A DNA stretch of 64,000 bases from Tachypleus tridentatus (taxonomy: Eukaryota > Arthropoda > Merostomata > Xiphosura > Limulidae), in contig NW_027467782.1 of assembly GCF_004210375.1 (NCBI RefSeq), positions 30,359,276-30,423,275 of the forward strand, in the 5' to 3' direction. Below the pieces are notes generated by a model. It did no database searches, was not told where the DNA came from, and saw only the letters and a program-made list of their open reading frames with translations. Both the position numbers and the translations under genes were made by a program. This document shows positions 23,743-64,000 of this stretch, piece after piece; within the stretch, counting starts at the first letter, position 1, and every line of letters begins with the position of its first letter.

Positions 23743-23858
23743 TATTAATTGATATTATGAAATTGGGCAACACCTCTTCATCTTAAGCTATAATTTGTTC
23801 ATTTATATTTTTCTAGCATTATTAGTTACTGATGTTCACATCTAACCTGTGCTCTAAC

Positions 23859-24071
23859 CTGCCAATAATATCTAAGTTGACTTAACCATATAAAATCATT
23901 TTCAGATGACACTTTGTTTTCTATTAAAGTAGCCAACACATCTCGAGCATGCACATCCAGTACAACCAGACACCCAAGGGTTGTCCTTGTCTGTTGGGGA
24001 AAATTTCCTTTCACTAATGTCACAACTTTTTCTATCTGCCTATTGTTTTGTTCCAAGTATTTATCCAAAGC
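23859..24071 (-). pseudogene. Dynein exon before AAA1, open throughout
   Basis: This 213-bp exon is intact: 71 codons reading [34 protein letters not shown], then [16 protein letters not shown], flanked by a TTTCAG acceptor and a GTTAGA donor. It is the best preserved dynein piece and fixes the family without doubt. Confidence 0.93.
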
Positions 24072-27499: not shown

Positions 27500-30470
27500 A
27501 GTCATAAGTTCTGGAAGTGTCTGTAAATATTACAATAAAAAGTCAGTCAAAGAGGTGCCACAAGGGCCCATAATAAAAATCATGGAGGTGTGGCAAAAGC
27601 ACAGATGCATAGACTCCCCAGGAGAGAGCTCGCTCATCTGAAAACCCAAAGTCAATAAACTATTCCATGGGGCAGAACAAAGTCTGGTCAAGATATATGG
27701 CCTGCATTGAGGTTTACAACATATAGTACATGACAGACAATAAGGCAAGTGTATTGAGAAGTGACACAAGAAAAAGAAGGTATAGGGTTTGAAAACAAAG
27801 AGTCCTGGATCTGATACTTTTCTGACACTTGATATAAGATACGACTGTGAAGTTTAAAGAGGGAACCGTAACTAAATGATCCAACAGGAGGGATAGAAAA
27901 TGGGAACTTGCCCAAAGTACTGCCAAAAGTTTGAGTACATTAAGCTGAAGTCAAGATACATCCTTGATCAGAGTGTTCAACATAAGGTTGTCATTCAGAG
28001 ATGCCTCTCTTCCTAGTAAGAATATATTGGTGAAAAAGGCATAAGAAAAATTTGGGTGGAAGTAGGTGCACATTTATAGTGGTATCGAAGTGGTAGACAG
28101 CCACTCAAAAATGTCTGTGAGAAGAGAAACAGTAGGTTCAAAGGTTCCTGTGATTCATTACACTGGTTGCACAAGGGCATTCAGAGATGGTTGATATGAG
28201 CATGGCCCAGTAGAATAAACAGTTTCAGGAAAGCTATAGTTACTAAAGACAATAGAGTCTCTCAGGCAACACGAGTAGGACAGACTCACATCCCAGTGAG
28301 AGAATGTTCCATCATTTGCAGATAGACAGGGTAAGATTCAGCCCAGCTGAGAAAGAAGTTGAAAAAATACTCCCAGAAAAACAAGGTATTTGATGGGATA
28401 AGAAAGAACTTAGAAGTCTTGGCAAGCCATCCTACAAAGACAGTTTCCTACAGAAGGAAAGTATGAAGGTAAGACTTCTCCTGTTAATGGGACAGAAGAA
28501 GCCAATCATTCATGCAATAATGAAAATCATAGAGCAAGTTCTTTCAGATGGTACACAAAAACCTTGACTGTTCTGTTAAAGACATAGGAGGTCAATGCAA
28601 TGCTAAAAAGAAAAAAGGATCGCTGAACTGGAAGGAATGATTTCAAGAAACAAATTTGAAATATTTTTAAGACTCAGAATTGGGAATATGAAGAAACATA
28701 TCTGAGATGCCACTCTTGCTCATCCAAAGTCCAAGGAAAAAGAACCAACAAAGAGTAAAGAAATTTTCCATGCAAAGTGGAAAGGTAGATTACCAGCCTC
28801 CAGTCCCCAGTTTTATTGGGGACCACAAACAGGTGAAAGTAAGACCCTCTCTATGACTTGTTTGTGCAATAGATCTGGCACAGTGACTTCCAGATATTGA
28901 AGATAGATGTAATTTGAGAGAGAAGTGAAGGGACAGTCCATGAAAGCTAACAAGTATGACCCATCTAACTGCAGATAGTTGTTAACAAAGATGTGCATAT
29001 CACAAAGACCAGCCCCATGACAACTGAATCTGCTCCATTGTCATTGATGAATCCAGAAAGTCTGACACTAGGCTGAAGAGTATTGAGCAAAAGGATAAGA
29101 TAGGAAAAGGGGTAAAAATATAGGAAGTGGGAGGAGTATAATGATCCAAGTAAACAGGGAAAGAGTAGTAGTACAGACTATGGCAGAAAGGAGAAGAGAA
29201 CAGGAATTGCCTGAAAATTCAAGTAGGGCTCGATGAATTGTCTCTTACATGAAGTGAAGAGAGGAAAGGTAATAAAACACAGAAAGTAGTATTAAGCAAA
29301 GACAAGAGAACTAAGCACTGGAGAGTGAAATCGACCTTAGTGGCCTTGCTCCCAAACAGGCAAAAGAGATTTCAAGGTCTATGACTCTAGAAGGAGGAAG
29401 TTCAGTTAACTGTAGGCCATGATAAAGGAATTAGAAAGCAAGAAGGACAAGGAATAAGATCACTGGCATGAATTGTCTCTTACATGAAGTGAAGAGAGGA
29501 AAGGTAATAAAACACAGAAAGTAGTATTAAGCAAATACAAGAGAACTAAGCACTGGAGAGTGAAATCGACTTCAGTGGGCTTGCTCCCAAACAGGCAAAA
29601 GAGATTTCAAGGTCTATGACTCTAGAAGGAGGAAGTTCAGTTAACTGTAGGCCATGATAAAGGAATTAGAAAGCAAGAAGGACAAGAAATAAGATCACTG
29701 GCATAGGGTAGATCTATAAAGGAAGCAATATTAACATCATTATCAGAAGATGGGAAAAGAATCAAAATTATTTAAGTTGGGAGTTGTGACGTAGAGAATG
29801 GGAAATATAGTAAGACAATGGAATGAGAGATAGAGTGATAAGGTCCAAATAGCATGAGGATGTCTGAAAATTCTCCTCAACAACAAGAGAGGTTCTCAAA
29901 GCATAACCAGAAGGGGGAGACAAACAGTAAAAGTTGTCTTTCTCATCATATTCCTTCTCAGAATGAGGGAAATAATTCTTGGCTGCATAATAAAACCTAC
30001 TACCCTATGCACAATGGCTATCATGCCATTTATGTTTAACATGTCTTCAGTAGCCAAATTAGGAAATTGACTATTGCAAGGTTATTCCTCATCTCAGCAG
30101 ATGCCAAAGTTGCATGAACTTGAAAGTTCATAGTTTGATAAACTAAAGAAAACAAAGTTCCTTTATTAGATTGCAAACCTCTGTAAGTTATGAATACAAC
30201 AAAATACATCAAATACACACAGTGCTAAGGAAGATTAATGAAGAATCTCAGTGGAAAATCTCAGTGCACAGGAAGGTTATGTCATGCTCATATTAGTGGA
30301 GGGCTTTTATTACATAATAACATCATTATGTAATGGTGAAAATCATGAGAAATCTAGTGAGTGTTGGTTGAAGTTGTCTAAAGAATTGTGGAATGCAAAT
30401 CTCTCAGGCAGATGCACAATAAAGATTGCTTTCTGTGTGAAGAGGTAGGTATGGTCTCAGAAGTAAGACA
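27500..30470 (-). pseudogene. DIRS-like retrotransposon remnant 1
   Basis: Read from high to low coordinates, the order fits a DIRS element. A gag-like zone lies at about 30020-29200 (SPPSGYALRTSLVVEENF, LPPSRVIDLEISFACLGAR). A reverse transcriptase trace at about 29000-28700 has KTGDWRLVIYLSTLH. An RNase H trace at about 27926-27700 has NFTVVSYIKCQ and RSRTLCFQT, the region that reads (S/T)DNxTVVxYIN in DIRS RNase H. The 30236-30470 stretch is related to 51000-51240 and may be terminal. Stops and shifts abound. DIRS elements integrate with a tyrosine recombinase; I did not find that domain in this copy. Confidence 0.65.
29229..29698. repeat. Tandem duplication of 235 bp inside DIRS remnant 1
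   Basis: Two nearly identical units (29229-29463 and 29464-29698) each begin near gaattgtctcttacatgaag and contain gcactggagagtgaaatcga. Only a few base changes separate them (for example caaagac/caaatac), so the duplication is much younger than the element that carries it. Confidence 0.93.
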
Positions 30471-30479
30471 TTTTTATAT

Positions 30480-31229
30480 TAATGAATGTATTATTGTGAA
30501 AAGTGTGAACTATCTAAAATATTTATCAGTGTTAATATAATACAATTCAGAAAATGATGGTTTAATTAAACACAAGTGCAATAATAATGTGAATTTACTG
30601 AGCTTATTTGGAAATATGCAATCCACTTTGTTGATTTTAAAAGTAAAATATACACAAAACTTTACTTAAAACACATTGATAATAGCAAAACAATTGTGTC
30701 ATTAACTGAAATGTTGTGGAAAGCAAAATATAATTTAAAACTAAGCAATTACACAAGAAAAAGTGGAGTGGTCCACAAATGGCATCTAGCACATGAGTGG
30801 CATGTGCATTTATGTTAGCAATTTGCTTACAGATGTGAAATGTGAAAGTTGGAGTAAAAGTTAGCAATGAAGTGGATGTAAGGAGGGGTGTTCAGTAACA
30901 GTTGGCCAGACTTCTATAAAAATTATATATCAGTGGTGAAGTGAAGGTGACAACAGCTGAGTGCTTAGCAGGACATATTAACGTTATAAAATATAAACAA
31001 ATAAAAAAAACAATTAACTATTTTGTTTATTTGATTTATATGTGTATATATCTTTATTTAAGTTAGGTAGTGAAAATTTATTACCATTTTGTTTTCTTGA
31101 ATATTTTTATAGATACTTTTTTAAATTTATGATGGGGAACGTCCCAGAGGTGAAAACTGCCATTGAGTATACTAAAGTTATCTTCTGAATGAGATTAAAC
31201 AGTTTCAACAAAAAGGACTGCAATTTTAC
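30480..31229. other. Intronic AT-rich stretch
   Basis: No gene seen. A short segment at 30880-30965 (cagtggtgaagtgaaggtg) may be another worn terminal-repeat fragment. Confidence 0.35.
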
Positions 31230-31357
31230 CTTTTGAATCAGTTCCACCAACTCACTGGATTTCTTTAGTTTCTCTAAATTTTTTCAACAAAGAGAACTGC
31301 CAGTACATGTCTGTCTAAAACAGCAGCTTTCATGGTGTCTCTCCAGTTGTGAATCAT
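31230..31357 (-). pseudogene. Dynein exon: linker region with frameshift
   Basis: The frame begins IHNWRDTMKAAVLDRHVLAV. After a one-base loss next to an A/T run it resumes as LEKLKKSSELVELIQK up to the donor GTAAAA. The family usually reads (K/R)xLEKLxKxxELLELIQK here. The acceptor is ATACAG. Confidence 0.87.
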
Positions 31358-31816
31358 CTGTATTGTATGATAAGAGTATTAAGATGATGTAATTATTCAA
31401 ACAATTATATAAAAAAACATCTAAGATGTTGGAACACATTTAAAGTTTAAATGTACCACAAAATTATTTAAAAGGTGGTGCTACCGTAACAATAGATTTA
31501 AACAAATAAAAATATGTTTTCTATTTGTATTTCTTTCCTGTATGGAACGTTTTTAATAACTGCATTTTATTTTTATCACAACTACATTTTTCTATTTCAA
31601 CTAATAAGTATAAGAAGATAATTGAATTACACAAAGCACTAATAATTATATTTGATGTTTAAAATACTAAGCTATATACATAAATATGTATATAAAGAGA
31701 ATAAAAAAGTCAGAAATAAAACAATAATATATAAATTGTCTTCACACAAGCAATAAAATACTACTTATACAAATTCTAAAACACTGAGGAAATATTAAAA
31801 TAGTTGTAGTGCATAC
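31358..31816. other. Intron between dynein exons
   Basis: AT-rich with no features. The flanking exons encode nearly adjacent parts of the dynein linker. Confidence 0.4.
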
Positions 31817-31947
31817 CTTCCCTCCTCTGGCATTTGAGCCATAATATCAGGGAACTAAAGATTGGCTCTAAATATAGCCATGTAGCTTGAACTTTTAACC
31901 ACTCATCAATTATCTCTCCTAACATCAACAACTTGTGTTCCCACTCT
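31817..31947 (-). pseudogene. Dynein exon: linker region with frameshift
   Basis: It encodes [20 protein letters not shown] and [12 protein letters not shown], where dyneins continue [11 protein letters not shown]. One base is missing at TCCCTGAT, so the later codons ([11 protein letters not shown]) lie in another frame. Acceptor TTACAG and donor GTATGC are present. Confidence 0.9.
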
Positions 31948-32832
31948 CTGTAAAAATGAAAAATAAAAAAGTGAAAATACTTCACAATTTGAAATATATA
32001 GTATATGAAATATAAAGGTATATATAGTGTTTATCATAAAATAAAAGTAATATTTAACAAAGAAAAAATTATTAGAATATAATTAATTTGATAAAAATAT
32101 TTTATCAAACCTTTTTTTATATTTATGAAACATTACCTTTAAGTTTTTCTAAAAACACAGTAAACATTACTCCTTAGTATAACACGTTTCTTTTACACTA
32201 TCATTTCAAACATAGTCCTTTTGGATTTTTTTCATGTATATATCTATCTTTATGTGTATTTGTCTTTAAGAAAACAATACACACACATACACATGTATAT
32301 GATTATATCTGTACTTAAAAAAAATTGAGAATGACCATCAACTATGTTACAAAAAAAAATTAATTTTTTGCAGCTTACTTTAACCACAAATAGAGTTAGC
32401 TAGCATTCCTGTCAAATGAAATGCATGTGTATCAACATAAAACTAATTTATTCGTTGTGGGCCTGGACTATTAATGAAATATCCAGTTCCAGACAAGAAA
32501 GAAGACTGAATATTGTTTGTGAGTTTGTAAAATTTTAGTATATAAATAATTATTTCTCATAATTATTTTTAATAACTGTTATTATAAATTGTATTGTTTT
32601 TTTGTATATCAAAATTGGTTTGTGTTAAGAAACTTGTGTGTATTAATCCTGTTGGCAAATATTGTAAATTTAATACATTGTGACATTTAATTATCTTCTA
32701 AATTAAAATTAAAATGTCTAGTTATTTGAAATCGTAATATGTAATGTATGTGACGTAATTAGTTGTAGACTAATAGATAAATTATAATATGTAACATACG
32801 TAATAAATGTCAATATTATTTTCATTTTTTAC
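31948..32832. other. Intron lacking expected dynein exons
   Basis: In dyneins about 100 or more residues separate the exons on either side of this 885-bp gap. No coding trace of them was seen in either strand by eye, so those exons appear lost or unrecognisable. Confidence 0.45.
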
Positions 32833-32911
32833 CTTAGAGTTCATCAACTCCTGAGTGCTTTTTGGAATGGTTAAAGCTTTATCTACAATGTGTTTGTACT
32901 CATCACAAATC
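32833..32911 (-). pseudogene. Dynein exon: tail, ICDEY motif
   Basis: This 79-bp exon encodes (R)ICDEYKHIVDKALTIPKS and TQELMNSK, a conserved tail block (typically ICxEYxxIxxKAL..P..T.ELM.L). It is open, joins in phase to the exon at 34854-35065 and has normal splice sites. Confidence 0.9.
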
Positions 32912-33249
32912 CTACAAGATAAAAACTTATACATGTAATGCCATGTTAGTTAAAATTAAATAAAAGTAGGCATTTATGAAGAAAACTCAAAAACTGCATG
33001 TTAAATATATAGAGCAATCAAACAATTTCTCTTAAGTGTTTAGTTTTTCACATCTGTATAATTAAAGTGTGTTTTCTTTAACAATAAATCATTACTTCTT
33101 GGTGTTCTTGTGTGTCAATCATATGTGCAAACACAGGTATCTTAACCTTTAGTGAATACAGTGTACACAGTGTAACATGTGGTTTCATACATTTACTGCT
33201 ACAGTAATTATATCTCATACACTAAGCCAATAATGTACAGTGACTTCTA

Positions 33250-33700
33250 TTGCTTACTTGTGTCAAAGAGGCATTAAAAACAGGAAGTTCAATTCCAATA
33301 GCTGTTCAGCAAACTTATTCCTTTCAGCAACCATCCTATTCAAAAAATCCTCCACAATAAGCAGTTTGAATATTCCAACTGGAACAGCCTCTTGTAGCAA
33401 ACCTGTAACCAGTTGAGGCTATGCAATAAAATAAATATTAGTTGGACTGATACATTTAGCTTGAACAATCAGCCACCTGTCAGTTTATACCAGTATTCCA
33501 GTGCACTGTCAGTGTCTGGGTTATTGTATCTGCCATGGATGAAGCAGTTTGAAAAAAAAACCTAGTATTTACACTCCAGTCCTCTTGAATCATCAGGCTC
33601 ACAAGGTTCATAATTACTACCTACTTCATCCTCTTCAAATGACTGTGCATTGGAATTTTGTAAATTACTTGCAGTTTCATTCAGAGTAAAACTCTAAACA
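33250..33700 (-). pseudogene. Possible piggyBac-like transposase amino-terminal fragment
   Basis: An acidic stretch (NSNAQSFEEDEVGSNYEPCE, about 33690-33570) is followed by VPVGIFKLLIVEDFLNRMVA and ERNKFAEQ (about 33390-33290). This recalls the acidic start and the (F/L)F.DE.L..IV.ETN.YA block of piggyBac transposases. Stops occur between the parts. It lies in a dynein intron and is not needed to join the dynein exons on either side. The call is tentative because catalytic Asp residues are not visible. Confidence 0.4.
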
Positions 33701-35870: not shown

Positions 35871-38800
35871 TACATTTGTGCAGCTACCTCCCTCTGCTAT
35901 TGTTATTCAATCCTCACTTTCATGGCAGGTTATAAAAGAAGAACACCAGCCAAGGGTAGAGGAAGTAAGCAGCTATCAGAAATGCATTTTCAGTGCATGA
36001 AATATGTTAACTTCCAATATGGTCTTACCTCCTTTCATATAAAACTTGAATTCAACACTGCAAAGTTTAAGCATACAATGTGGGAACCAAGTGGAAAGTG
36101 ACTCCCCCTGAATGAATGTATGTGCTTTGAGATGAAAATGAAACACACTTATGAGGTACCATACTGACTTCTGGAACAGGTATGCTCTTTGCTCATGATG
36201 TAGGAAATGAATCTGACATAGGTGTAATCCACAGTAAAATATAAACAGAATTAGCTACATACACGTGCAATCTCAACCAGACAAATGAGATTTCATGACT
36301 TGTCCTTGGCATTAGAAGGTTGATGATGAAAAAAAGATAAATTATGACATAAACATAAACGTGGCTAAGCCACGTGGACTGTGTTATCTATATATATACA
36401 TAACAAGCCTAATCATAAGTATACAGGAATTAAGAAGTGGAAGTTAGCTTCTGGCTGAAACTGGACAAACTTCCAAAACCACATTAGGAACAAGAAGTAT
36501 AATACATCAAAACTAGCATTACCGGGTTGCCTCAAATCAACCTCATGAACAAAGCAATATCTGTAACCAGTGTCACAAACAGAAATCGTTCATTACCCAG
36601 TCATAAATACAGAAAAGTGATATCCAGCATCTGGAATTATTAGGAAGATTTGTAACACTTACTCAACCATAGGAACAGTGCACTTATGTCCTGTATCTGT
36701 CACTGAGAAGCAGGTGAAGTCCCCCAAACTCAATTGTAGGAGCTGGAAAAGAACCTCCTGCAACCAGAATTAATGAGAATAGGAGTCTCTACCATAAACA
36801 GCTATAAGAATAGGAGAGTGTCATCCTGCACCTAGTTTTAAGAGGAGGATTCTGTATAGGCTTGGCCTGCTATAACCTATTTGTTACTTTATTTTGACAG
36901 GAGTCCACCTGATAAAAAGCATCCAGAGGAAATGGAAGAAGGCAGATCAGCCTTGCCCTCTTCTAACTGGTAAAGTAAATTTCTAGTCTCACTCATGATC
37001 AATCTTTTCAGAAACTAAGAAATGGGTAAGAACTCCCATGTTACACTGAAAGAAAAAAGGGGGAATTAAATGTGGTGGGGAGTCCAGAAGACCATCACAC
37101 TAGAGAAAGTACAATGGGTATCTTTAATTCCTACTTTTAAAAGCATATCACTCCCAATTAATGCAATCAAAAGGTCAGCAAGCATGGGTGATAATCCCTT
37201 CTGCTATACTCAGGAAGTCCATGAGTGATGGTCTCCAAATGATATATACATATACATACCACAGGGTATGCTACAAGTGGTCTTGTTGAAACATCCCATT
37301 CCTACAGTGAGTGTTATAATGTAATCATGACGTCAATAGTGCATATCTGACCAGGCAAAAAGATATGACAAAATGATGAATAAGGTGAGAAAACACATTG
37401 TGGAGGTGGGGGCCTTCCATGGAGGAGTTAGAATACACCAGCCTAATGAGTTATTATGAAAAATGAAAGGTTTCCAGGGTATAAAAGTTGGGAAATTGAA
37501 CCTCAAAAGTAGTCAGGAAATACCACATAAAATCATAAGGAGAGAACTAGACAAAAGTTGATCAGCATCAGCACCAGTGAAAGATGAAAGTGATAGTCAA
37601 ACAGCATCCATGAGCAGCACAAATCTTAGGGATGAAAGACCAGTTAAGCAGTATGACATAAGAGAAATGGTAGAAGAAGCAGGTAACATTGAAAACAGAA
37701 ATATCTAATTTGTGATTTCTATAAGCAATGAGGAGAAGAAAATAAAATCTTGAGGGGGGAAGAGGATGATGGAACATGAAAATGAAAGTTCAAAGTAAGA
37801 ATGGTAAAGATGTAAAGAATCACACTAAGATCCCAATCATCCATATTATAGGAACATAGAGGATGCATGACTTGAAATAATAAAAATGTAGAGAAATGAA
37901 AGGGAATGACAAAACCTGCAGAAAAGAAATGTGTTTGACAAGTCTATCAGATATCTAGAAATGACCAACGTGGAGAACCCTTTGTCAAACAACCAGGTGA
38001 AGAACAAGGAAAGAGAATGAACAGAAGGGTAGAAAGGAAAAAACTCACAACAAATAGATCAAAGTCTTAAGGTATACTCTCACCTATGTGGTAAATAGAC
38101 ATGAAAGAAGGACTAAGGGTACAAGAAAAAAAAAGATGTAACACATGGGGTCAATCCCTGGGCTGAAACAATGCACCTGACAAAAGCCATGTGTGAAGGC
38201 AGAGTGTGGTGACATCTGGACGAACAATATATAACTGAAATCAACAGAATACAGATTTAAGGGTAGACAAAGGTCACACAACTAAAGGCTGGAGCAGTGA
38301 GAATGATGGTTATATTGGCCAAGACAGAACCACTAGTAAAACAAGACATAGTGTAGTTTGGAATAAAAATAGAACTCTTGAAAGAATATCAAATAAGATA
38401 TTAAGCATAATTGTGAAGAATTCTCCAAACTTGACTGAACACGACTACCCCCCAAAGTTAGTGGATAATAAACAGAAGAAGAAAGAAAAGGAAATTTGGT
38501 GATCCAGTGGAGAAAGGCATAAATGAGATATCTCCAACTGAAAACATATCCACCTACAGGCCTGTAGATTAAGAGACTATTCCACATGTAGAATCTTGTT
38601 GGGAGGAGATAAAAATCCATTACCAGATTTAGGAGAAAAGGCAAGTGAAGACCACAAAGTGGTAATTGTGGGCCCAGAAAAGAGATTTAGGATCTGAAAA
38701 CACAGAGACCTTGAACTGTTACTTCCTGGCTCTGTGATACGAGTTACTACAGTGAAGATGTCAGAATGTAACATTACCACCCACTCCATGATAGAGAAAG

Positions 38801-38989
38801 GAAGAAAGTAGGATAAAGCTTGATGAACTGCCAAAAACTTGAGAATGGTGATATGGAAAGAAGAACTCCAAGCTGTAGATTACAAAGATAAAATGACATT
38901 ACTAGTGTCATGAACATAAGAAAAAAAACCAAAGCAAAGCTCAGCTCTGTAACCAGGAAAGAATAAAACATGTCAGTGATGGAACAAAA

Positions 38990-40080
38990 CAAACATTTAA
39001 GTTCTAAGTTTACAAAATTAGTATGATAAGGCACATAGTGAAGAATTACAAAAAAAGAACAGCATTTATTCAAATAGAACAATCAAGTACATATTACTGG
39101 TATGTAATCTAGAAATTATCTAAATCTACCTAATTAGCAAAGTACTAATAAGTATCAAATAGACAACCATCTAAGTGTATCTAGCCCACAAAATATGTAA
39201 TAATAATAACTGTGCAAAATGATTAAGATTACCTAGAAAACACATTAATAATCCACATCTAACTTACAATTCATCTGAAGTAATCTAGATGACAAAGGAC
39301 ACATAATTACATCCAACACTGAAGAAAATTATGAGAATAAAGCATGGAGATAAAAACAATGAAAAATATCATTCTTATAGATTAGTGAATTACATGTTAC
39401 TAGTAAAGATATGTGACATACAAGCTATTTAAACATATATAGCTTAAAAAGTACTGATAAATATCAGACAAACCATCTAAATCGGCATAGTCCACAAAAT
39501 AATAAAAAAAATGTGCAAACCAATAAAAATTACCTAGAAAACACATTAAGAATCAATATTAATTCACAAATCCTCTAAATTAACCTAAAGAAAAAAGGAC
39601 ACATTTAAGTCCTACACTAACAAAAATTAAGATGATAAAGCACACAGTTAAGATTCATGAAGAAAATTATTAAAAGATAATAAGAATTGTTTGTCTGAAG
39701 TTAAGCACAAAGTTTCACAATGGGTTATCTATGCTCTGTCCACCATGGGTGTTGAAACCCAGTTTCTGATATTGTAAATCCACAGACATACTGTTGCACC
39801 ATTTGAGAGCTGGAATAACAAATAAGATGTTACAAGTAGTAATCATGTGTAACTTGCAATCAATTTAAACATATTTAGTTAAAGAACTTAGTAAAAATAA
39901 CCTAACAAGCCCTTGAAATTTGTTAAGTCTACACAGTATTTAATATTAATGAATATGCAAAGAAAAACAACAAAGTAATAATCAATATCTCATTTGCAAT
40001 GCCTCTAAAGACACTTAGATGACAAATGACACATAAATTTCTAACATAGCAAAGTCCAAACAGAGATGACACAAAATACT
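38990..40080. repeat. Satellite-like tandem repeat, about 310 bp x 3.4
   Basis: The phrases gacacat..aagtc..(c)aacac, ataaagcaca, tttaaacatat, cctagaaaacacattaa and agtactaataagtatcaaat recur at about 310-bp intervals (38990, 39300, 39598 and about 40025). The last interval is lengthened by a 126-bp SINE. Units are considerably diverged. Confidence 0.75.
39690..39815 (-). mobile_element. Family 2 SINE inside the 310-bp repeat
   Basis: The copy has gttaagcacaaagtttcaca at its tail side, a B box region gttgaaacccagttt and a diverged head (accatttgagagctgg). Subtracting it restores the satellite period. Confidence 0.75.
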
Positions 40081-42959: not shown

Positions 42960-44635
42960 CTGAAACAAAAAAGACATGCATACAAATTTTACTCTATAGA
43001 CAAATAGATATTTTTGTGCAACATACTGGATGGCTGCATCTTATCTACTCTACAAAGCCTAAAAAAATTTGTAAAAGTTTAGAAAATATTTTAATGTTTT
43101 CTAACTAATCTGTAACATTTTTTTTCTTTTTGTGACAAGCAAGTAAACAACTGCATGAAGGTTGTATAGGTATGCAAACATGTATTTTAAAATGCAGTCC
43201 TCTGTTATACAGAACTTATCAACTAAAACTAACTGCTCACCATACTTAACTCTCAATTTGTATAAAATATATTTTTGTACAGCCAAGGATTTGAACTGTA
43301 CAAGTAAATGGCTGGGTTCATTTTCTACTTATGTATGTGTGGTGATGAAAAGCATTATTTTTACAGTTAATAGGTTTTAATTTTTATCTTATGTGGAGTA
43401 ATAATCAAAGTTTAAATTTTTATCTTATCTGAAGTAATAATCAAAGTCTTAATAAAAAAGGTAAACAAAGTTCTGATACTGTAATGAACATCACATATGA
43501 ACACAAACAGTACAAAATGATTTACAGTAATTTAAGGTGTATGTCTAAAACTCATGAACATTATACTCAGATTAGTTGACTAACTTTTATCCACAAAGAA
43601 GAAAGAAAAGTATATTTAGCCCATATTTGGAAGTAAATTTTCTACAATGCTAAATAAACAACAAAACCAATGTTTAAAGTAATTTTTAAGAAATTTTCCA
43701 TTGGTTTTTTTGTAAACAATGAAAATATCTTTTCTGTGGTAAACTTTAGAAAATAACATGGGGATGTATTAAAGGTACAAGTTCTTTTACAAGGCAATCA
43801 AGCTTGGTCATTGAAATTACATAATATACATAGAATTATGCTATTTTAGGTAAAGTAATAAAAAAAAAAAAAGAATGAATCCTACTAATTATAAGCTAAT
43901 CAAGCACAAAATTTAAATGTGAATTAAAACACACAAGAGAAACAATCATAATACATGTATACACAAAAATGTTTTGGGAGAGTAACCAAAACTTTTTTCC
44001 TTCTTCTCTGAAAGCTGTTAGTTTGTATCACTGTAGTTTAACTTTTTTTTAATGTTGAAGAATATATACTCAGCAGTGTGTTGTGGTTCTTGCACTTGTA
44101 TACTTCTTTGTAAACCTTTTTTTGAAAATGCAGAAAAAATGTTTTAGGACTGTTTCTCTTTGTGTGTAAATTAAAGTTTTTCTACTTTTATTCTTAATGC
44201 AAATCTTATGTGAGTTGTATGATAGTGTCAGTTAACATTAACTTTGATATTCAAAGATGACTACAACGATAACTTGAATTTTATAATTCAGATGTTTTAC
44301 CTCAAAACATTGTAAATGGGTTGGTAAATGTTGTGTAGCAACTTTCCACTGGCTAAGGCTAACCACTTCAAAAAAGAATTTCAAAAGATTAAAAAAAATA
44401 GAAAGACACAAGAGGCTTATGCCTATCACTATTATAAATAAAGAGATGTGTAAACTGTGGGAGATGGCAGCAAGGGCTTAAGCTTTTATAAGAAAGGGTA
44501 CATCAACTAACAATGATTTTCAGAAAGTTAGGAAGAGTATTATACAGTGGAGGTAACTGTAACGAGCCTGTTCTATTGAACAAAATATTTTATTCATTGA
44601 ATTGTATATACAAGGAACTACTAGAGAGAAAGTCA
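42960..44635. other. Noncoding stretch upstream of the dynein exons
   Basis: It is AT-rich, with a short direct duplication near 43376-43445 (tttttatcttat..gaagtaataatcaaagt). The minus-strand stretch at about 44310-44380 ends in a donor-like site and encodes SQWKVATQHLPTHLQCFE; I could not assign it. Confidence 0.4.
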
Positions 44636-44639
44636 ACAA

Positions 44640-45640
44640 AAGAAACAGAGAAGGATGTGGATGATAACCTAAGAAGATTGTAGTTATGGGTGATTCCTTG
44701 ACAAAGTATGTGAATAGGATTGTCTGTGGGGTAAATACAGAGAAAATAATTAAACAAACATATTCCTTTAGAAAGAAAAGGGTAGCTCCAAATAAAAAAT
44801 CAGGTTGGTTCACAAAGGGTATAAGAGATAAAATTAAAGAAAACCATTGTATATTCAAGAAATATAACAAAGTCTTCAGATAAGGTAAAACCCTTTAGGA
44901 CTGATAGAGATCGGCCTATATTTAATGATTATGAGAAGGCTGGGTTATTAAATTTGTTTTTCTTCAGTTTTAATTAATGAATATTTAAAAGGTATTCCTA
45001 ATCTTGAACAGGTTGAAAAAGATGATTTCATTAATTCTGAGCTTGTTTAGAAAACATTGAGCAGTTTAAAGAACGATAAGGCTACTGGGCTAGATATTTA
45101 CCAAGAAATTTGAAGGAGGTTAAGGATTAGATATATAAGCTGCTTGCTACTATTTTTGTTAGTTCTTGAATAGTGGGCAGGTGCCAAAGGATTCTAAGTT
45201 AGCTAATATTTCACTCCTCTTTTCATGAGAGATAATAATTCTCCCAGTGATTACAAGTGTATTAATCTTACATCAGTTGTGAAAAAAATTTAAGAAAGTC
45301 TGATAATAGAGGCTTTACAAAGTCATTTCAAAGGGTTACTGATTATGTAGATGAGGATAACAGTGTAGATTTGGTATATTGACCTTCAGAAAGCATTTGA
45401 CAAGGTGCTAAATAAAACATTTAAAAGGAATTATCTCTGTAGGTATTAGAAAACAATTACCTAACTGGATAGAAGAGCAGCTGAATGGAAGATTGTTACT
45501 GTAAATACAATTCAGTCACACTATTAATATCACAAGTGAGAGTCAGGTTTAGAACCTTTGCTCATTTTTTGATTTACATCAATGACATAATAAAGGAACA
45601 ATTAGTTCTAATAATAAAATAATTGTATAGGTGAGAAAAT
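44640..45640 (+). pseudogene. CR1/L2-like LINE remnant
   Basis: VVMGDSLTKYVNRIVC (about 44682-44730) resembles the esterase-like domain of CR1-type ORF1. RKKRVAPNKKSGWFTKGIRD and KIKENHCIFKKYNK match the endonuclease-RT linker. Further on NDKATGLDI, NSGQVPKDSKLANIS and DLQKAFDK (about 45380-45410) are reverse transcriptase blocks, with motif A decayed. Frame changes and stops are frequent and the catalytic YADD block is not seen; a trace of LIYINDI lies near 45570-45590. Confidence 0.72.
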
Positions 45641-45842
45641 AACAAATGCAAAATAGATTATAAAGTAATGTTGAAAGAGTCAACAATTTAAAATAACTTT
45701 ATTGATAAAACATGAATACCATGTTTTGGGCAACAGCACTTCATCAGCTCTGGAGTATTTATGTACACATTATATTGTAAACATCACAATCTGAGTTGAT
45801 GCTTTTCAGTTTACCTATTGTTATTATACTAACAAGCAAAAA

Positions 45843-53814: not shown

Positions 53815-54075
53815 TTGCAAGTATAACATTATACAACATGAAATTATATTGTGTGTGTGTTATTATAACATTAAACAACATGAAATTATATTGTGTGTGT
53901 GTTATTATAACATTATATAACATTAAATTATATTGTGTGTGTTATTATAACATTATATAACATTAAATTATATTGTGTGTGTGTTATTATAACATTAAAC
54001 AACATGAAATTATATTGTGTGTGTGTTTTATTATATTACATTATATAACATTAAATTATATTGTGTGTGTGTGTT
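53815..54075. repeat. About 42-46-bp tandem repeat ending in GT runs, 5-6 copies
   Basis: Each unit has ttattataacatta, aacat(g/t)aaattatatt and a GT run (gtgtgtgtg). Two unit types alternate (acaacatg and tataacatt). The last GT run leads straight into a family 3 SINE at 54080. Confidence 0.88.
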
Positions 54076-54079
54076 ATTT

Positions 54080-54182
54080 GTAATAAAGCCATATCGAGCT
54101 ATCTAACATATTCACTGAGGACAATGAAAACCCTGATTTTATCGTTGTAATTCTGTAGTAAAGTGCTGTACCACCCTGAGTT
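54080..54182 (-). mobile_element. Family 3 SINE
   Basis: The tail side is gtgtgtgtgttatttgtaat, then aaagccatatcgagctatct, the B box region caatgaaaaccctgatttta and the head gctgtaccaccctgag. Confidence 0.75.
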
Positions 54183-55149
54183 TCCAAGAATTTCCAAGTA
54201 TGTCAGAGTTTTAAGTATTTTAATCTAACCTAGACTGTGCTAACGTATCTACTTAAATAGATGTTACAAACTTGGGACTTCCTAATAGAGCCACAAGTCT
54301 TTTCATGTGTTATTACTGATATAGTCACTAATATGGTTGCCTTTAAACTTTACTCATCTTGGCTCATTTATTGTAGACGATATTTAAGTCATGGTGTGAG
54401 GATGCTTTCTCGGTAAACACAGATGAATTCCTTTTAGATGGACCAAAATTATCAAGAGGTTTTTCAGAGATGTCACAGAAAATTAAAGTATATCTAAGGG
54501 TAAAAATGTAGTACTACTTAGTTACACAGTTTATCACATCACTCTAAATAAAAAAACATCACTGGAGAACACAAGTTCCACAAAATATACTTTGAACTTT
54601 AAATATGAACAATTAATGTGGACTTAAATCGAGAGGTAAAAAATGTAAAAACATGTACAAATTACACGGTTAGCAATTAAGTAATAAAGATATCTCATGA
54701 AGAAAACATCAGTACTTATTAAAAACTAGATTTATTTTAATATGTTAAATATCATGAGATCAGTTAAAATAAACTATGAAGTTTAAAACATATTATATTC
54801 AATTTTTACAGACTTATCACTGAGAAAGAGAATATGTTTTGGAATAAATTATCTATCACACGTGTCCATCATGTCTTAGTTGTGTACAGTTTCAAAAATT
54901 AATGTTTTCATTCTTTATCGTACAATAAATTACTTGATTAAATATCTCTATAAATGATTCCTTTTTAGTGAATATTTGTTAGCGCTCGTAAAAAGTTTAT
55001 CATACCATATTTTACTTCGTCTTTCATTATATTTTAATTTTTTACATAATTTTCTTTTATTCTTACCTATCAATTTAATTGTAATGAGACGTATCTAATA
55101 TTCATACAATAAACAATATTTAACAGTTTTACAGACATTTCAGTTTGAA
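54183..55149. other. AT-rich noncoding stretch
   Basis: No supported gene. Confidence 0.35.
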
Positions 55150-56790
55150 TAGTTTGATCTAAAACAGCTTCGTTTTTTTTTAAATAATTTCCAACCTATA
55201 AATGAGACATCAAGACTGACATTAGATCTAATAAACATTTGGCCTCGTTTTTTGAATAAATTTGGTATTAACTGAAATGTCATATTTTGTTACTAGTTTC
55301 TGCCAAATGTTTGTTATATTTCTGCTAATATCGGGAATATATGATATGCAACAGTATATGGTTTCATGATTTTTTGATTTGTGAGGTACATTTACTTTTG
55401 TTGGTTGATTTTGCTTTATGTTTAGGTGTGTGTGTATAATATTTAACTACGGTTTGTGGAGGAAACTTGTTGATGAAGTATTGTTTTATTTTGTCTAATT
55501 CATTATTAATTTTATCTGGTGAGCATATTTTGTTTCTTAGTGTGTTGAGTTTTGTTTTGTTTCATGTGCTGAGTTCAAGAATGTATAGTCCAGTATGGGT
55601 GATTTTTCAGTGGATTTCTGTTTTAAATTGCGTGTCAGTTCTTGTAATTTTGAGGTTAAATATGATATTTGATTGCTTTCTTTCTATTCACATGTGAAGT
55701 TAATGTTGGGATATATAGAGTTAATGTGATTGAAAAAAATTAAGTGTGTGTTGTGTGGATGTGAATCTCACAATTGTGTCATCAACATATCTGTACCAGT
55801 TTAGTGGCGGATGTAATGCTGTGTTCATTGTTTGTGTTTCAACTTGCGTCACACAAATATTGGCTAGAACTGGTGATACTGAGTTGCCCATGCTTAGGCG
55901 ATTTGTTTGTATATAGTTGTGGTTGTTGAACATGAAGTTTGTCTTCATTGTGGTGAATTCTATGAGGGTTGTTGGGAATGTCTATTGATGAGTTAGGGTC
56001 TCAAATACAGAGTTCTAAGACTATCATACAGGCTTCAGCAGTTGGGACTTCTGTAAAGAGGGAAATAACATTGAAACTGGCCATTAAGGCTTTATGATTA
56101 AGTTAAGATTAGACTTGAAATTAAAAGTCTTTGATGAATGAGTTGGCTGATGTTACATATTTGGAGAATGCCCATGCTTTGTATTTACCAAGATTTTAAT
56201 TAAACAATTCATATGTGGATGTTATTGGTCATAATGGATGATCTGGTTTAAGAGGTTTGGGGATGCCAAATATTTGTGGTGTGCATGAGTCGGTCTTGCA
56301 TAGGTAGGAATAAAGTTTTTGAAACTGTGTTGGCTTTTTCATTTTTAGTAGTATTTTGTTCAGTTGCATTTCATGTGTCTTTGTTGGATTTGTGTGTATT
56401 GGTTTTAATTTGTTTGTGTCTGATAGGTTGTTCTTTATTTTTTGAATGTATTTATTCATGTTCATTATGACTATAACATTTCCTTTCTCTGCTTTTAAAA
56501 TTTTTATGTTTTTGTCGTGTTTTAGGTTTTTAATGGAATTAATGTCTCTTTTTGTAAGATTGTTTTTAGCTTTCTGTTGTGAAATTATGTTGATGATTTT
56601 GCGAGAAAATTATTTGAAAAAATCTTTTAAAATGTTGTTTTTAGGTGTTTCTGGAAAATATAAATTTTTAATTTTTTGGGGAAGTTTGGCTGTTGAAAGT
56701 CAATAAAATTGTCAGAGTTGTCTTTCTGTTGGTTGTTTTCTGTGGAAAGTATCACAAGTTTTCTGGCTAGGTCTTCTAAACATGTTTTAA
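55150..56790 (-). pseudogene. Penelope-like element reverse transcriptase remnant
   Basis: Minus-strand frames give TPQIFGIPKPLKPDHPL (about 56300-56230; Penelope RT has (L/I)xGxPKxHKxxxPxRPI), then YIQTNRLSMGNSVSPVLANI (about 55880) and NWYRYVDDTIVRF (about 55780), the catalytic YVDD motif preserved. Further down, NIWQKLVTKYDISVNTKFIQ (about 55290-55235) corresponds to the linker to the endonuclease. Penelope-like elements pair this RT with a GIY-YIG endonuclease. Frames are broken, and the endonuclease part on this strand is lost below about 55150. Confidence 0.82.
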
Positions 56791-56799
56791 TTTCTAATG

Positions 56800-57190
56800 T
56801 TGGACCTTAGAACCAACCTAGAAAATAGTTTTTTGGTAAAAACTAGTCGCAAAATATGACATTCCAGTTAATACCAAATTTATTCAAAAACCAAGCACAA
56901 ATCTAAGTTCTATATTATGTAAAAACTACAATGACAAACACCACACCAATATTATTTATAAAATACAATGTGATAACTGCCACAACTTCTATATTGGAGA
57001 AACAAGTAGAAAAATGGAAACCACATTCAAAGAACACAAATAGTCACCTTCACACGTTTTCGAACACTGTAATTCAATCTTTGGCTTTCCTTCCATCCAA
57101 CAGTTCCTCAACTGCAGAAGTAAAACCCTGGAATTTATTGTTCAACAGAACAGAATTATTATTATCAATTTCCTAAGTTTTAAGTCAAAT
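56800..57190 (+). pseudogene. Penelope GIY-YIG endonuclease fragment, inverted relative to the RT
   Basis: The plus-strand frame reads YDIPVNTKFIQKPSTNLSSI, NIIYKIQCDNCHNFYIGETS and RKMETTFKEHK, the GIY-YIG nuclease start (YxIxCxxCxxFYIGETxR) of Penelope-like elements. Its leading part repeats, in opposite orientation, the linker at 55310-55227 of the neighbouring RT. This is therefore the tail of another copy placed head to head. Confidence 0.8.
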
Positions 57191-57888: not shown

Positions 57889-58552
57889 TATATTTACTTA
57901 ATAAAAAAAATATATTTATCCTGTTCTACGATTTATCACAAGCTTATCTTTAACGAAGCCGAAAGTACCGTTACAATGTTAAGCCTATTTAAAAATTAAA
58001 CCTTGTTGTAAAATCTACACATTTTAAATTTTAAGTTTAAATTGTGATCATCTTTCTTTCATTTACAAATCAGACTACATCTAGTTGTTATTTAACCCAA
58101 ATGACTTCGAATTTTAATATCAAGATTAAATAACTCACAAATTTATAAGAGCGACCACTCTTACCCTGCATCTCAAAACTTAGATTTGATAATCAGCGTT
58201 AACATATAAAATATACATATATATTTGCTAGCATTTAAACGACAAAAAGCAACCTGAGCATTGAGAGAATTTTTGTTCAATCGGAAATTGGGAATGAACA
58301 GATTTAAATAATAACAAATGCAATGAAATGTACAAAATAACATTTGATATACACGTGTTAGAAAACTACTGTGAAGAAAGGCTCAAATTTAACAATAAAC
58401 CATTAATATAATGATAAATATGAAATATTATTACTTCATCAGCTTTTATGTCCTTTCCAACAATATAGTAAGCTACTTTAGAAATACTCAACAATATACA
58501 CCGTCTCTTAGGAATCAAACTATCACTGCACAAGTTTCGAACTCTGTGAAAA

Positions 58553-58792
58553 GTAATCCGACGCGAGTTCGCGCCCCCACGCGCTAAACATGCTCGCCCT
58601 CCCAGCCGTGGGGGTGTATAATGTGACGGTCAATCCCACTATTCGTTGGTAAAAAAAAGAGTAGCCCAAGAGTTGGCGGTGGGTGGTGATGACTAGCTGC
58701 CTTCCCTCTAGTCTTACACTGCTAAATTAGGGACGGCTAGCACAGATAGCCCTCTAGCTTTGTGCGAAATTCCAAAAACAAACAAACAAACA
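58553..58792 (+). mobile_element. Family 1 SINE, 5'-truncated, present in one arm only
   Basis: The copy starts inside the tRNA-like head (gcgagttcgcgcccccacgc) and ends in aaaacaaacaaacaaac. The flanks repeat aactctgtgaaaa (58540-58552 and 58793-58805). The other arm (about 63351-63361) has a single, uninterrupted version: the empty site. Confidence 0.95.
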
Positions 58793-58890
58793 AACTCTGT
58801 GAAAAAAACAACTGCGGCGTATATTTCAAAATATTAATTTTACTAAAAGTAATTACAAAGGCTATTTGGAAGATCTGAGTTGACATAATA

Positions 58891-59515
58891 ATGATGTCTA
58901 TTCTGGAGTGTTTAACTCATGTATTTCTGTTGCTTCTAATATGCTGTTGGAGGAATATCTTAATCCTGGCTCTCTTTAGGTTTTTGATGGTAGCATCAAT
59001 AATGGCTTCTATATGCTACTTAATTAAAGTAATGACGGCTTCCTGTAAATGTAAAACCACGGAAGATATGAAAGACGCTTTAAAGTATATGTCTAAAGAA
59101 ATCTGTACGGATATCTTGATATATCTTATTATAGTTGTGGTAACTGTCCTATGGCGATTACATTACGTATCCATGATGAATATCGCAAGAAACCTGATTG
59201 ACGTAGTTGTGGTGGTTCTCCTCATCTGTTTAATTATTTTAGCCATGACAAATGTACTAAAACATTCAAATAATGTCTTTTGGTTGGTTATCCTAAGTTG
59301 TTTCGTAAATATCATCCTGATGGTTCTCGGCAGATGTTTGACAAACATTATCATGATAGCAGTATTAATATGTTTAACTTCACTAATCATATTAATTGTT
59401 TTGATGCGTGAGACTAAAATGATAATGATAGATATCGAGAGATACTTAACTGTAAAGGTGATGATCAGTATCTTAGAGAAACTGATTAAAGTAATAATAA
59501 TGATCTACACTCCAA
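58891..59515 (+). other. Long hydrophobic open frame with 36-bp periodicity (left copy)
   Basis: The frame opens MMSILECLTHVFLLLLICCW and runs into the N gap. Written in rows of 12 residues it lines up in register: VLLICLIILAMT, VILSCFVNIILM, VLGRCLTNIIMI, AVLICLTSLIIL, SILEKLIKVIIM. The DNA shows the same 36-bp period (for example gatatcgagagatac and agtatcttagagaaac 36 bp apart). Every repeat is a multiple of three, so the frame stays open without selection, and part of the opposite strand is open too. I therefore do not call a protein with confidence. If translated, it would be a many-pass, Ile/Val/Leu-rich membrane polypeptide. Confidence 0.6.
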
Positions 59516-60015
59516 NNNNNNNNNNNNNNNNNNNNNNNNNNNNNNNNNNNNNNNNNNNNNNNNNNNNNNNNNNNNNNNNNNNNNNNNNNNNNNNNNNNNN
59601 NNNNNNNNNNNNNNNNNNNNNNNNNNNNNNNNNNNNNNNNNNNNNNNNNNNNNNNNNNNNNNNNNNNNNNNNNNNNNNNNNNNNNNNNNNNNNNNNNNNN
59701 NNNNNNNNNNNNNNNNNNNNNNNNNNNNNNNNNNNNNNNNNNNNNNNNNNNNNNNNNNNNNNNNNNNNNNNNNNNNNNNNNNNNNNNNNNNNNNNNNNNN
59801 NNNNNNNNNNNNNNNNNNNNNNNNNNNNNNNNNNNNNNNNNNNNNNNNNNNNNNNNNNNNNNNNNNNNNNNNNNNNNNNNNNNNNNNNNNNNNNNNNNNN
59901 NNNNNNNNNNNNNNNNNNNNNNNNNNNNNNNNNNNNNNNNNNNNNNNNNNNNNNNNNNNNNNNNNNNNNNNNNNNNNNNNNNNNNNNNNNNNNNNNNNNN
60001 NNNNNNNNNNNNNNN
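59516..60015. other. Assembly gap (500 N)
   Basis: Exactly 500 N, a conventional scaffold-join placeholder, so the real distance and content are unknown. Open frames spanning it are artefacts. Confidence 0.97.
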
Positions 60016-61692
60016 GTGACTAAAGTATAAACATTCTGTTGTTTCCATGTGATACTGAATGGACTAGGTATAAACATTTTTCTTGTTACTGTTTAGTGAT
60101 ACTGAGAAGGACTAGGAAAATATAATACATATATGTTCTTGTTACTGTAGTAATACTGTGAAGGACTAGGTATAAACATTCTGTTGTTACTGTAGGTAAT
60201 ACCGAAGTTGATCAGGTATAAAAACATTCTGTTGTTACTGTAGTAATACTGAAGGACTAGGTATATATGTTATGTTGTTATTGTAGTATCACTGGAGGAC
60301 TAGGTATAAACATTCTGTTGTTACTGTAGTAACACTGAAGGATTAGGTATAACACATTCTGTTGTTACTGTAGTAATACTGAAGGACTAGGTATAAACAT
60401 TCTGTTGTTATTGTAGTAACACTGAAGGACTAGGTATAAACATTCTGTTGTTACTGTAGTAATAATTGACTGACTAGGATAAAACATTCTTGTTACCGTA
60501 GTAATAATACTGAAGGACTAGGTATGTTCTGTTATTGTAGCATCACTGGAGGACTAGGTATAAACATTCTGTTGTTACTGTAGTAATACTGAAGGACCAT
60601 TCAACATATATATGTTATGTTGTTATTGTAGCATCACTGGAGGACCAGGTATAAACATTCTGTTGTTACTGTAGTAATACTGGGAGGTATAAACATTCTG
60701 TTGTTACTGTAGTAATACTGAAGGACTAGGTATAAACATTCTGTTGTTACTGTATTGGAGGACTGTTACTGTAGTAATACTGGGACTAGGTAGGACTAGG
60801 TATAAACATTCTGTTGTTACTGTAGTAATACTGAAGGACTAGGTAGGTTACTGTATAAACATTCTGTTGTTACTGTAGTAATACTGGAGGACTAGGTATA
60901 AACATTCTGTTGTTACTGTAGTAATACTGAAGGACTAGGTATAAACATTCTGTTGTTACTGTAGCAATACTGAAGGACGAGGTATAAACATAGGTATAGG
61001 TATAAACATTCTGTTGTTACTGTAGCATCACTGGAGGACCAGGTATAAACATTCTGTTGTTACTGTAGCATCACTGGAGGACTAGGTATAAACATTCTGT
61101 TGTTACTGTAGTAATACTGAAGGACTAGGTATAAACATTCTGTTGTTACTGTAGTAATACTGAAGGACTAGGTATAAACATTCTGTTGTTACTGTAGTAA
61201 TACTGAAGGACTAGGTATAAACATTCTGTTGTTACTGTAGTAATACTGAAGGACTAGGTATAAACATTCTGTTGTTACTGTAGTAATACTGAAGGACTAG
61301 GTATAAACATTCTGTTGTTACTGTAGTAATACTGAAGGACTAGGTATAAACATTCTGTTGTTACTGTAGCATCACTGGAGGACCAGGTATAAACATTCTG
61401 TTGTTACTGTAGTAATACTGGAGGACTAGGTATAAACATTCTGTTGTTACTGTAGTAATACTGAAGGACTAGGTATAAACATTCTGTTGTTACTGTAGTA
61501 ATACTGAACGACTAGGTATAAACATTCTGTTGTTACTGTAGTAATACTGAAGGACTAGGTATAAACATTCTGTTGTTACTGTAGTAATACTGAAGGACTA
61601 GGTATAAACATTCTGTTGTTACTGTAGTAATACTGGAGGACTAGGTATAAACATTCTGTTGTTACTGTAGTAATACTGAAGGACAAGGTATA
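60016..61692. repeat. 43-bp minisatellite array, about 38 copies
   Basis: The unit contains ggactaggtataaacattct, gttgttactgta and gtaatactgaa. A second unit type has gtagcatcactggagg instead and appears at intervals (about 60285, 60540, 60630, 61020, 61060, 61365). Units are ragged near the gap and very uniform from 61080 to 61680. The array runs into the gap, so its true length is probably larger. Confidence 0.95.
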
Positions 61693-62213
61693 TGGTTTTA
61701 CTCATCATAATACTCTAAACTGAACAGAAACTGGTTAACCAGTGAATGGATATTTGCTGTAAAATTCTTATCAACGCTTGCCCTCGTACTCACTCACTTC
61801 TTTTTCTTTATCAGTAATCAACATGAACAAATATTTTTGTACAACTATCAATCAGGTAATTAGATAATTAGCTAAAATAATGCTGTCACACCTAATCGTC
61901 TAATAAATACTGACTGAATTAATTTATCTCGGTGTTTCTTAAGTTTATAAAACGTTTAACCTCATTCAGATAAGACATGAATAAATTGTTTATTTGGAAG
62001 ATTTTACACTTACTTCAATAGCTCTTTGGATTTCTTTTCCATGTTGTTCTTTACCGTGTGTGATATCTTTTATGTTTACTAAACGCTAAAGTTTTCTTCA
62101 TATGTCACTCCCATATACTAGTTACTTGACTTATTACATTACAACAATTTTGATAATTATCAAACAATTTATCTTTTCTATATACGATTTTTTTTTTCTC
62201 GTAACAATCATCA
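61693..62213. other. Noncoding spacer
   Basis: AT-rich with no gene seen, between the minisatellite and the foldback repeat. Confidence 0.4.
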
Positions 62214-62511
62214 AAACTATATATGCAAAAATGGATCGTTTGGGTTGAGAAAATATTTTACATGAAAGAGCGAACTACGTCAGGTTCACAAAGAAAGAGG
62301 TAACTGACCGGTAATTTATTTATACAAATAAAATTATATATTCAAACATCTAACACCGTCCTCTATATTCCGACACTCAGTTACACAATCCCTTCCAAAC
62401 ATGTGGTCAGCTTCCGGTAAGTTACCTCTTTCTTTGTGAACGTGACGTTGTTCGCTCTTTCATGTAAAATATTTTCTCAACCCAAAAGAAACGTTTTTGC
62501 ATATATAGTTC
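62214..62511. repeat. Foldback (MITE-like) inverted repeat
   Basis: About 100 bp at 62214-62316 (aactatatatgcaaaaa ... gaaagaggtaactgaccgg) is repeated in reverse complement at 62410-62511 around a spacer of about 93 bp. No clear target-site duplication was found. It could be a nonautonomous foldback transposon or a hairpin-forming relic. Confidence 0.85.
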
Positions 62512-62556
62512 TCTACACGTGGGTTTTTATCGACATCACTAATCACCATAACTGTA

Positions 62557-63261
62557 TTAAATAAAAAAAGTTATTACCTTAATTAATACGTAAAGTAAGA
62601 TATATTGGACAGCTATCATGTTTTCTTTGATTATAAATTGGAGTGTAGTCATTATTATTACTTTAATCAGTTTCTCTAAGATACTGATCATCACCTTTTC
62701 AGTTAAGTATCTTTCGATATCTATCATTATCATTTTAGTCTCACGCATCAAAACAATTAATATGATTAGTGAAGTGAAACATATTAATACGGCTATCATG
62801 ACAATGTTAGTCAAACATCTGCCGAGAACCATCAGGATGATATTTACGAAACAACTTAGGATAACCACCCAAAAGACATTATTTGAATGTTTTAGTACAT
62901 TTGTCATGGCTAAGATAATCAAACAGATTAGGAGAACCACCACAACTACGATAATCAGGAATATTGCGATATTCATCATGGATACGTAATGTGATCGCCA
63001 TAGGACAGTTACCACAACTATAATAAGATATATCAAGATGTCCGTACAGATTTCTTTAGACATATACTTTAAAGCGTCTTTCATATCTTCCGTGGTTTTA
63101 CATTTACAGGAAGCCGTCATTACTTTAATTAAGTAGCATATAGAAGCCATTATTGATGCTACGATCAAAAACCTAAAGAGAGCCTGGATTAAGATATCCC
63201 TCCAACAGCATATTAGAAGCAACAGAAATACATGAGTTAAACACTCCAGAATAGACATCAT
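62557..63261 (-). other. Long hydrophobic open frame with 36-bp periodicity (right copy, 234 codons)
   Basis: This is the complete version of the frame at 58891, ending in TTLQFIIKENMI, AVQYILLYVLIK, VITFFI and a stop. The 12-residue register continues almost to the end. By eye it differs from the left copy by about 12 residues in 209 (for example RNILIL/RDILIQ, ARNLID/AIFLII). In the stretch compared base by base there were about 4 silent and 9 or more replacement changes, the ratio expected without constraint. No signal peptide, domain or promoter is evident. It could be a rapidly evolving repeat-containing membrane protein, but an in-phase degenerate minisatellite is the simpler reading. 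Confidence 0.6.
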
Positions 63262-64000
63262 TATTATGTTAACTCAGATCTTCCAAAGAGCCTTTGTAAT
63301 TACTTTTAGTAAAATTAATATTTTGAAATATATGCCGCAGTTGTTTTTTTCACAGAGACTTCGAAACTTGTGTAGTGATAGTTTGGTTCCTAAGAGACGG
63401 TGTGTATTGTTGAGTATTTCTAAAGTAGCTTAGTATATTGTTGGAAAGGACATAAAAGCTGATGAAGTAATAATATTTCATATTTATCATTATATTAATG
63501 GTTTATTCTTATATTTGAGCCTTTCTTCACAGTAGTTTTTCTAACACGTGTGTATCAAATGTTATCTTGTACATTTATTTGCATTTGTTATTATTTAAAT
63601 CTGTTCATTCTAAATTTCCGATTGAACAAAAATTCTCTGCTTTTTGTCGTTTAAATGCCATCAAATATATACGTATATTTTTGATGTTAACGCTGATCAT
63701 CAAATCTGGGTTTTGAGATGCAGGTGGAGAGTGGTCGCTCTTATAAATTTGTGAGTTATTTAATCTTGATATTAAAATTCGAAGTCATTTGGGTTAAATA
63801 ACAACTAGATATAGTCTGATTTGTAAATAAAAAAAGGATGGTCACAATTTAAACTGAAAATTTAAAATGTGTAGATTTTACAACAAGGTTTAATTTTTAA
63901 ATAGGCTTAACATTGTAACGGTACTTTCGGCTTCGTTAAAGATAAGCTTGTGATAAATCGTAGAACAGGATAAATATATTTTTTTTATTAAGTAAATATA
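62617..64000 (-). repeat. Inverted repeat, right arm
   Basis: This is the reverse-complement partner of 57889-59515, without the SINE. It is still homologous at the last base of the window. Confidence 0.93.

Follow-up and report, generated by a model that had tools for sequence, protein, structure and literature searches.

Is the long inverted repeat around an assembly gap on scaffold C19 of the horseshoe crab Tachypleus tridentatus a true palindrome, a pair of alleles joined by mistake, or something else? The stretch analyzed here, referred to as the window, comprises 64,000 nucleotides (C19:30359276-30423275) of an assembly of 2,167,478,450 bases in 205 contigs; the scaffold itself is 69.8 Mb long. 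Positions are counted from the first base of the window, and those below 1 or above 64000 are window-equivalent coordinates that lie outside it. The sole N run inside the window, 59516-60015, is a 500-N join between two contigs. A preliminary description, made from the sequence alone, had noted matching arms on either side of this join and left the choice between a palindrome and mis-joined haplotypes. This choice missed a third and best-supported case. The arms are very likely paralogous copies of a many-copy repeat, and the inverted repeat most likely gives no good reason to assume a real palindrome or two parental versions of one locus.

The inverted match around the join was confirmed. Inside the window, 57889-58552 aligned with 64000-63347 at 93.3% identity and 58795-59515 with 63357-62638 at 96.7%. 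Both pieces together contained 53 substitutions (3.9%; 27 transitions and 26 transversions) in 1,362 aligned columns, so a chance match of the arms is out of the question. On the left side the homology reached the final base before the Ns. The inverted arms stood as described but are far longer than the 1.4 kb given as their minimum: BLAST past the end of the window extended the repeat to approximately 30 kb, with 27541-59515 matching 62638-93029 in pieces of 95.6 to 98.5% identity. The left arm (27541-59515, plus strand) is a copy of the large repeat that is cut by the gap, and the right arm (minus strand) occupies 62638-64000 of the window and goes on to window-equivalent position 93029. Homology ended sharply at 27541/93029, inside both contigs, and the flanks beyond were unrelated. 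Each arm carries the same open reading frame for a hydrophobic protein, at 58891-59515 on the plus strand, where it is cut by the gap, and at 62557-63261 on the minus strand, where it encodes 234 amino acids followed by a stop codon.

Segments of the left arm recovered many further copies from the genome; every copy count given here is a minimum, with the copy in the window counted in. For the inner part of the arm (58795-59515, 721 bp) there were at least 42 matches. At least 16 of these were full length or nearly so at 94 to 100% identity (14 on C19, plus a single copy on C3 and another on C11), and at least 12 further matches at 91% were located on C6, C7, C9, and C14. Segment 38000-39500 was present in at least 23 full-length copies of 97 to 100% identity on seven scaffolds, and segment 44200-45700 in at least 18 of 98 to 100% on four. 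The layout of landmarks among the 23 copies of 38000-39500, evaluated on long high-identity rows only, was largely fixed. Segment 44200-45700 followed at a distance of 6,170 to 6,653 bp in 16 copies, the 27541 junction lay 10.2 to 11.8 kb upstream in 18, and the reading frame was found downstream in 13 (12 at 18.6 to 22.5 kb and one at 40 kb). Near-identical copies with their landmarks in the same order are what a large multicopy repeat should display, and the arms belong to a family that shows both. Beyond 27541/93029, and within the distances asked, the flank of the left-arm type was found in six of the 23 copies, that of the right-arm type in nine, both in none, and neither in eight; each type thus recurs in other copies. 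A 2-kb segment located approximately 35 to 37 kb upstream of the frame in the right arm was likewise present at full length and 99 to 100% identity in at least 11 places on C19, C11, C6, and C3. Downstream, the family shows two arrangements, one with a minisatellite and one continuing as the window's left end does, and the right arm combines features of the two. For a mobile element (a giant transposon or an integrated virus-like element), which would have defined ends with target-site duplications and genes for transposition or replication, the sequence read covered internal junctions, and the shared reading frame had no match in the libraries searched, as described below.

The relationships of the two arms were evaluated in a tree of approximately 2.5 kb next to the gap with 19 rows. 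L017, which is the same locus as the copy preceding the window, and L028 (77%) were left out, and L014 was kept, its tree distance of 28% being caused by an inverted segment. The left arm paired with C19:26438861 (26.44 Mb; 99.9% identity, distance 0.11%, support 1.000), and the right arm with C19:27196185 (27.20 Mb; 99.8%, 0.16%, 1.000). Left and right arms were only 96.6% identical to one another beside the gap (distance 3.42%), so that each arm is 21 to 31 times closer to a copy megabases away. Diagnostic sites gave the same result: at 55 to 59.5 kb the left arm agreed with the copy at 26.44 Mb at 99 of 100 sites, and the right arm agreed with that at 27.20 Mb at all 100. Farther from the gap, at 45 to 54 kb, the left arm agreed with the 27.20-Mb copy at 195 of 218 sites. 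A crossover zone at 54000-55000, located by the diagnostic-site scan, separates the part that resembles the right arm and the 27.20-Mb copy from the part that resembles the 26.44-Mb copy. Copies that exchanged sequence, by gene conversion or by unequal exchange, could give this mosaic, as could a chimeric contig end.

The same pairing is reflected in a short interspersed nuclear element (SINE) at 58555-58794 on the plus strand of the left arm, which is flanked by direct repeats of approximately 11 bp (read by eye) and faces an empty site in the right arm. It had been taken for a presence/absence difference between alleles. Among 20 aligned copies (L017 and the copy preceding the window, one locus, are both counted here, and L028 is left out), the insertion occupied this site in two only, the left arm and the distant C19:26438861, and it does not look like an allelic difference. 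Sequence words taken from the SINE gave no match in papers, viral contigs, or prokaryote genomes.

The contig that carries 1-59515 extends from C19:30344343 to 30418790 (74,448 bases), and homologous neighbors face it at both ends. A second run of exactly 500 Ns, C19:30343843-30344342 (window-equivalent -15432 to -14933), lies approximately 15 kb before the window. Across it, 30332800-30343842 matched 30362934-30351867 in inverted orientation at 98.2%; the alignment of 11,116 columns contained 77 substitutions and 103 gap openings, and here too the homology reached the base that adjoins the Ns. By coordinate arithmetic, the left neighbor (C19, 30.27 to 30.34 Mb) carries seven landmarks as a mirror image in the same order, from a frame at 30337417 to a frame at 30274094. 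It was the best other match among those listed for 6600-8300, 22500-24000, and 26800-28300. At 29934-33432, 18 of 3,483 sites distinguished the left contig from it, against 51 for the right arm, and substitutions between the neighbor and the window's contig amounted to 0.5 to 0.7% where read, which was part of the neighbor's 70 kb. Much of the left contig may be a redundant copy, in inverted orientation, of the left neighbor's end.

A scaffolder that places contigs end to end will yield two consecutive 500-N joins with homologous ends face to face if the contigs end in the same repeat. Contigs would break inside the repeat because many near-identical copies of it exist, and the scaffolder would then set two ends carrying the same outward-facing repeat side by side with a 500-N placeholder between them. 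Joining two outward-facing homologous ends always creates an apparent inverted repeat. We consider it likely that the window holds two back-to-back copies of the many-copy repeat, whose contigs ended inside it and were joined end to end by scaffolding. The adjacency of the arms would then be a product of scaffolding, and the join itself is probably spurious. In this respect the preliminary description was partly right, since a wrong join agrees with the bare 500-N run, the homologous outward ends, and the repetition of the pattern at the next gap; the alleles and the palindrome were not supported.

That the left contig and the reversed right contig are two haplotypes of one locus, both kept and scaffolded end to end, would account for inverted homology up to the gap and is a known kind of artifact. 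For the mangrove horseshoe crab assembly, PMC7210998 describes contigs that are duplicated, redundant, or overlap at their ends, and PMC6421076 describes undercollapsed heterozygosity in Aedes. The similarity of the arms also speaks for it in places: in 15 of 23 steps of 750 bp, at 36.8 to 54 kb, they are 98.9% or more alike, as alleles might be. In the same interval, however, the copy at C19:27.20 Mb and other copies are about as close as the opposite arm. For orientation only, heterozygosity is given as 0.65% in PMC6390705 and as 0.8% in PMC7210998. Alleles should not each have a far closer relative megabases away beside the gap, nor share a SINE with that distant relative, and they should have the same flanks, whereas the homology of the arms stops at 27541/93029 in different multicopy sequences. 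With the left neighbor closer than the right arm at 29.9 to 33.4 kb as well, we regard two alleles as very unlikely. The idea of a redundant haplotype fits the left neighbor better because of its 0.5 to 0.7% substitutions where read, though not over 38 to 59.5 kb.

A true palindrome, or a real tail-to-tail pair with the minisatellite between the copies and the 500 Ns hiding an unassembled middle, is also unlikely, although less so. Inverted copies of approximately 30 kb do lie on one scaffold, a minisatellite at a contig end would explain the break, and C19:26438861 has the same minisatellite downstream, so that the left copy, if complete, might run into the right copy there. Both a single inverted duplication and a palindrome kept alike by conversion should leave the arms as each other's closest relatives. 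Near the center they are not sister copies, each having another sister beside the gap, and at 29.9 to 33.4 kb C19:30.30 Mb is a closer match to the left arm. Scaffolding would, moreover, produce the end-to-end pattern that recurs at the neighboring join. Quite unlikely, in turn, is the reading that a large DNA unit of 40 to 100 kb, with little coding sequence and very few CpG sites over much of its length, is still multiplying in C19 and onto other chromosomes, and that the inverted pairs here and near C19:30.34 Mb genuinely result from its spread or recombination. Besides the high similarity at 36.8 to 54 kb, two observations weigh against the favored reading of a scaffolding join and a redundant left contig. 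Copy L014 (C19:26084800-26094799), a locus without Ns, contains an inverted segment of approximately 3 kb with the reading frame, and hence truly inverted neighbors can exist in so repeat-rich a region. Other copies, furthermore, come closer than the left neighbor at 38000-39500 (where it is the 7th row, counting the window's own), at 44200-45700 (10th row), and next to the gap; a simple haplotig model would not lead one to expect this.

With regard to known systems, the joins resemble redundant or repeat-ended contigs in Hi-C scaffolds in their 500-N length, their adjacent homologous ends, and the partial redundancy of neighbors. PMC10320752 and PMC10421919 describe 3D-DNA assemblies in which contigs are separated by 500 Ns. 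Unlike in undercollapsed heterozygosity, the pair across the window's gap looks paralogous, and the allele-like overlap is on the other side of the contig. The family itself is similar to young segmental duplications or large dispersed repeats, being tens of kilobases long, mostly 97 to 100% identical, fixed in landmark order, present on one scaffold plus others, and mosaic in its relationships. It differs from these in its strong concentration on one 69.8-Mb scaffold. Ampliconic palindromes of sex chromosomes consist of long inverted arms with a repeated reading frame in each, and in both respects they are similar to this locus. Here, however, neither arm has the other as its closest match near the center, the center is an N join, and there is no evidence that C19 is a sex chromosome.

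These findings suggest that one apparent palindrome should no longer be listed as a candidate site of instability or gene conversion, and that a gap-centered inverted repeat in a scaffolded genome should be compared first with every further copy present there. Unlike the palindrome, the repeat family, which is young, large, and concentrated on one scaffold, is real. It would belong among large dispersed repeats or segmental duplications and may merit a study of its own.

The reading frame shared by the arms, which lies near one end of the repeat, had no stop in the first 200 codons in 16 of the 20 aligned copies and was broken before codon 200 in the other 4. At 238 codons, it was longer than any frame in 1,000 Markov sequences. 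Nonsynonymous (dN) and synonymous (dS) divergences between the arms were 0.028 and 0.056 (NG86). Comparison with a 91% relative on C9 gave 0.098 and 0.097 by NG86 and 0.114 and 0.059 by YN00, with no sign of purifying selection in this comparison. A role as a selected gene is unproven, given the lack of clear selection from dN/dS and the broken frames. At the thresholds used, comparison of the frame with Pfam, PHROGs, PDB sequences, and IMG/VR contigs (the last by tblastn after a pattern search) returned nothing. From the sequence alone, AlphaFold2 predicted mostly helices, with low confidence (mean predicted local distance difference test score 61.6). Two copies approximately 24 Mb apart, C19:29617965 (L020) and C19:5895620 (L021), were nearly identical where compared and had the same break in the frame.

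The end of the right contig carries a 43-bp minisatellite at 60025-61692, detected with Tandem Repeats Finder (TRF), and a foldback whose 97-bp arms (62215-62311 and 62414-62510) are an inverted match at 92.8%. The minisatellite, the foldback, and the SINE were all where they had been placed before. That the minisatellite and the foldback occur on one side only needs qualification, since truncation alone could leave the minisatellite one-sided: it lies downstream in C19:26438861, the copy that shares 99.9% identity with the end of the left arm. The array was also found downstream of the frame in C19:26359699 (by TRF, as for C19:26438861) and in L013, L015, and L022 to L024 (by BLAST), whereas the 10-kb loci of L025 to L027, three copies at 91%, gave no match to the array. 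The two-arm foldback was present in the right arm and in two type-B copies, near C19:30.337 and 30.358 Mb; in C19:26438861, only one foldback arm core was recovered by exact match.

CpG observed/expected ratios were 0.08 to 0.16 at 22 to 46 kb and 0.06 to 0.20 in the mirror part of the right arm (window-equivalent 74001-94000). Part of the repeat may be methylated in the germline, which would account for such values. The CpG-poor region 22001-46000 also showed raised TpG and CpA, and the adjoining 1 to 16 kb and 62 to 64 kb had CpG ratios of 0.7 to 1.0.

Among the 16 frames of the window scanned against Pfam, a reverse transcriptase fragment at 15026-15427 was the single match above the cutoff, and three weak matches fell below it. 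Rfam (at gathering thresholds) and tRNA scans of the window returned nothing. Frames in opposite orientation at 56229-57043 had no Pfam match in this set; we take them to resemble pieces of a Penelope-type reverse transcriptase and a GIY-YIG domain. The minus-strand region 38333-38879 had relatives of approximately 68 to 74% on many scaffolds, and its frames presumably resemble a decayed DIRS-type RNase H.

The block upstream of the left arm (1-27540, plus strand) was not found beside the right arm and is itself multicopy, as segment copy counts indicate: 6600-8300 and 22500-24000 each had at least 10 full-length copies at 92% or more. Among the rows listed, only the left neighbor and the window run straight through 27541, and in seven other copies the halves are 5.36 to 5.43 kb apart. 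The query halves overlap by 3 bp at this junction, as would be seen if a 3-bp target had been duplicated or if short repeats had recombined with loss of the sequence between them. Relatives of 6600-8300 at 79 to 91% identity form a cluster at C6:154.7-165.9 Mb. The block also contains a direct repeat of 1.1 kb (470-1597 and 12875-14002, 95.9% identity), which is perhaps a small transposon.

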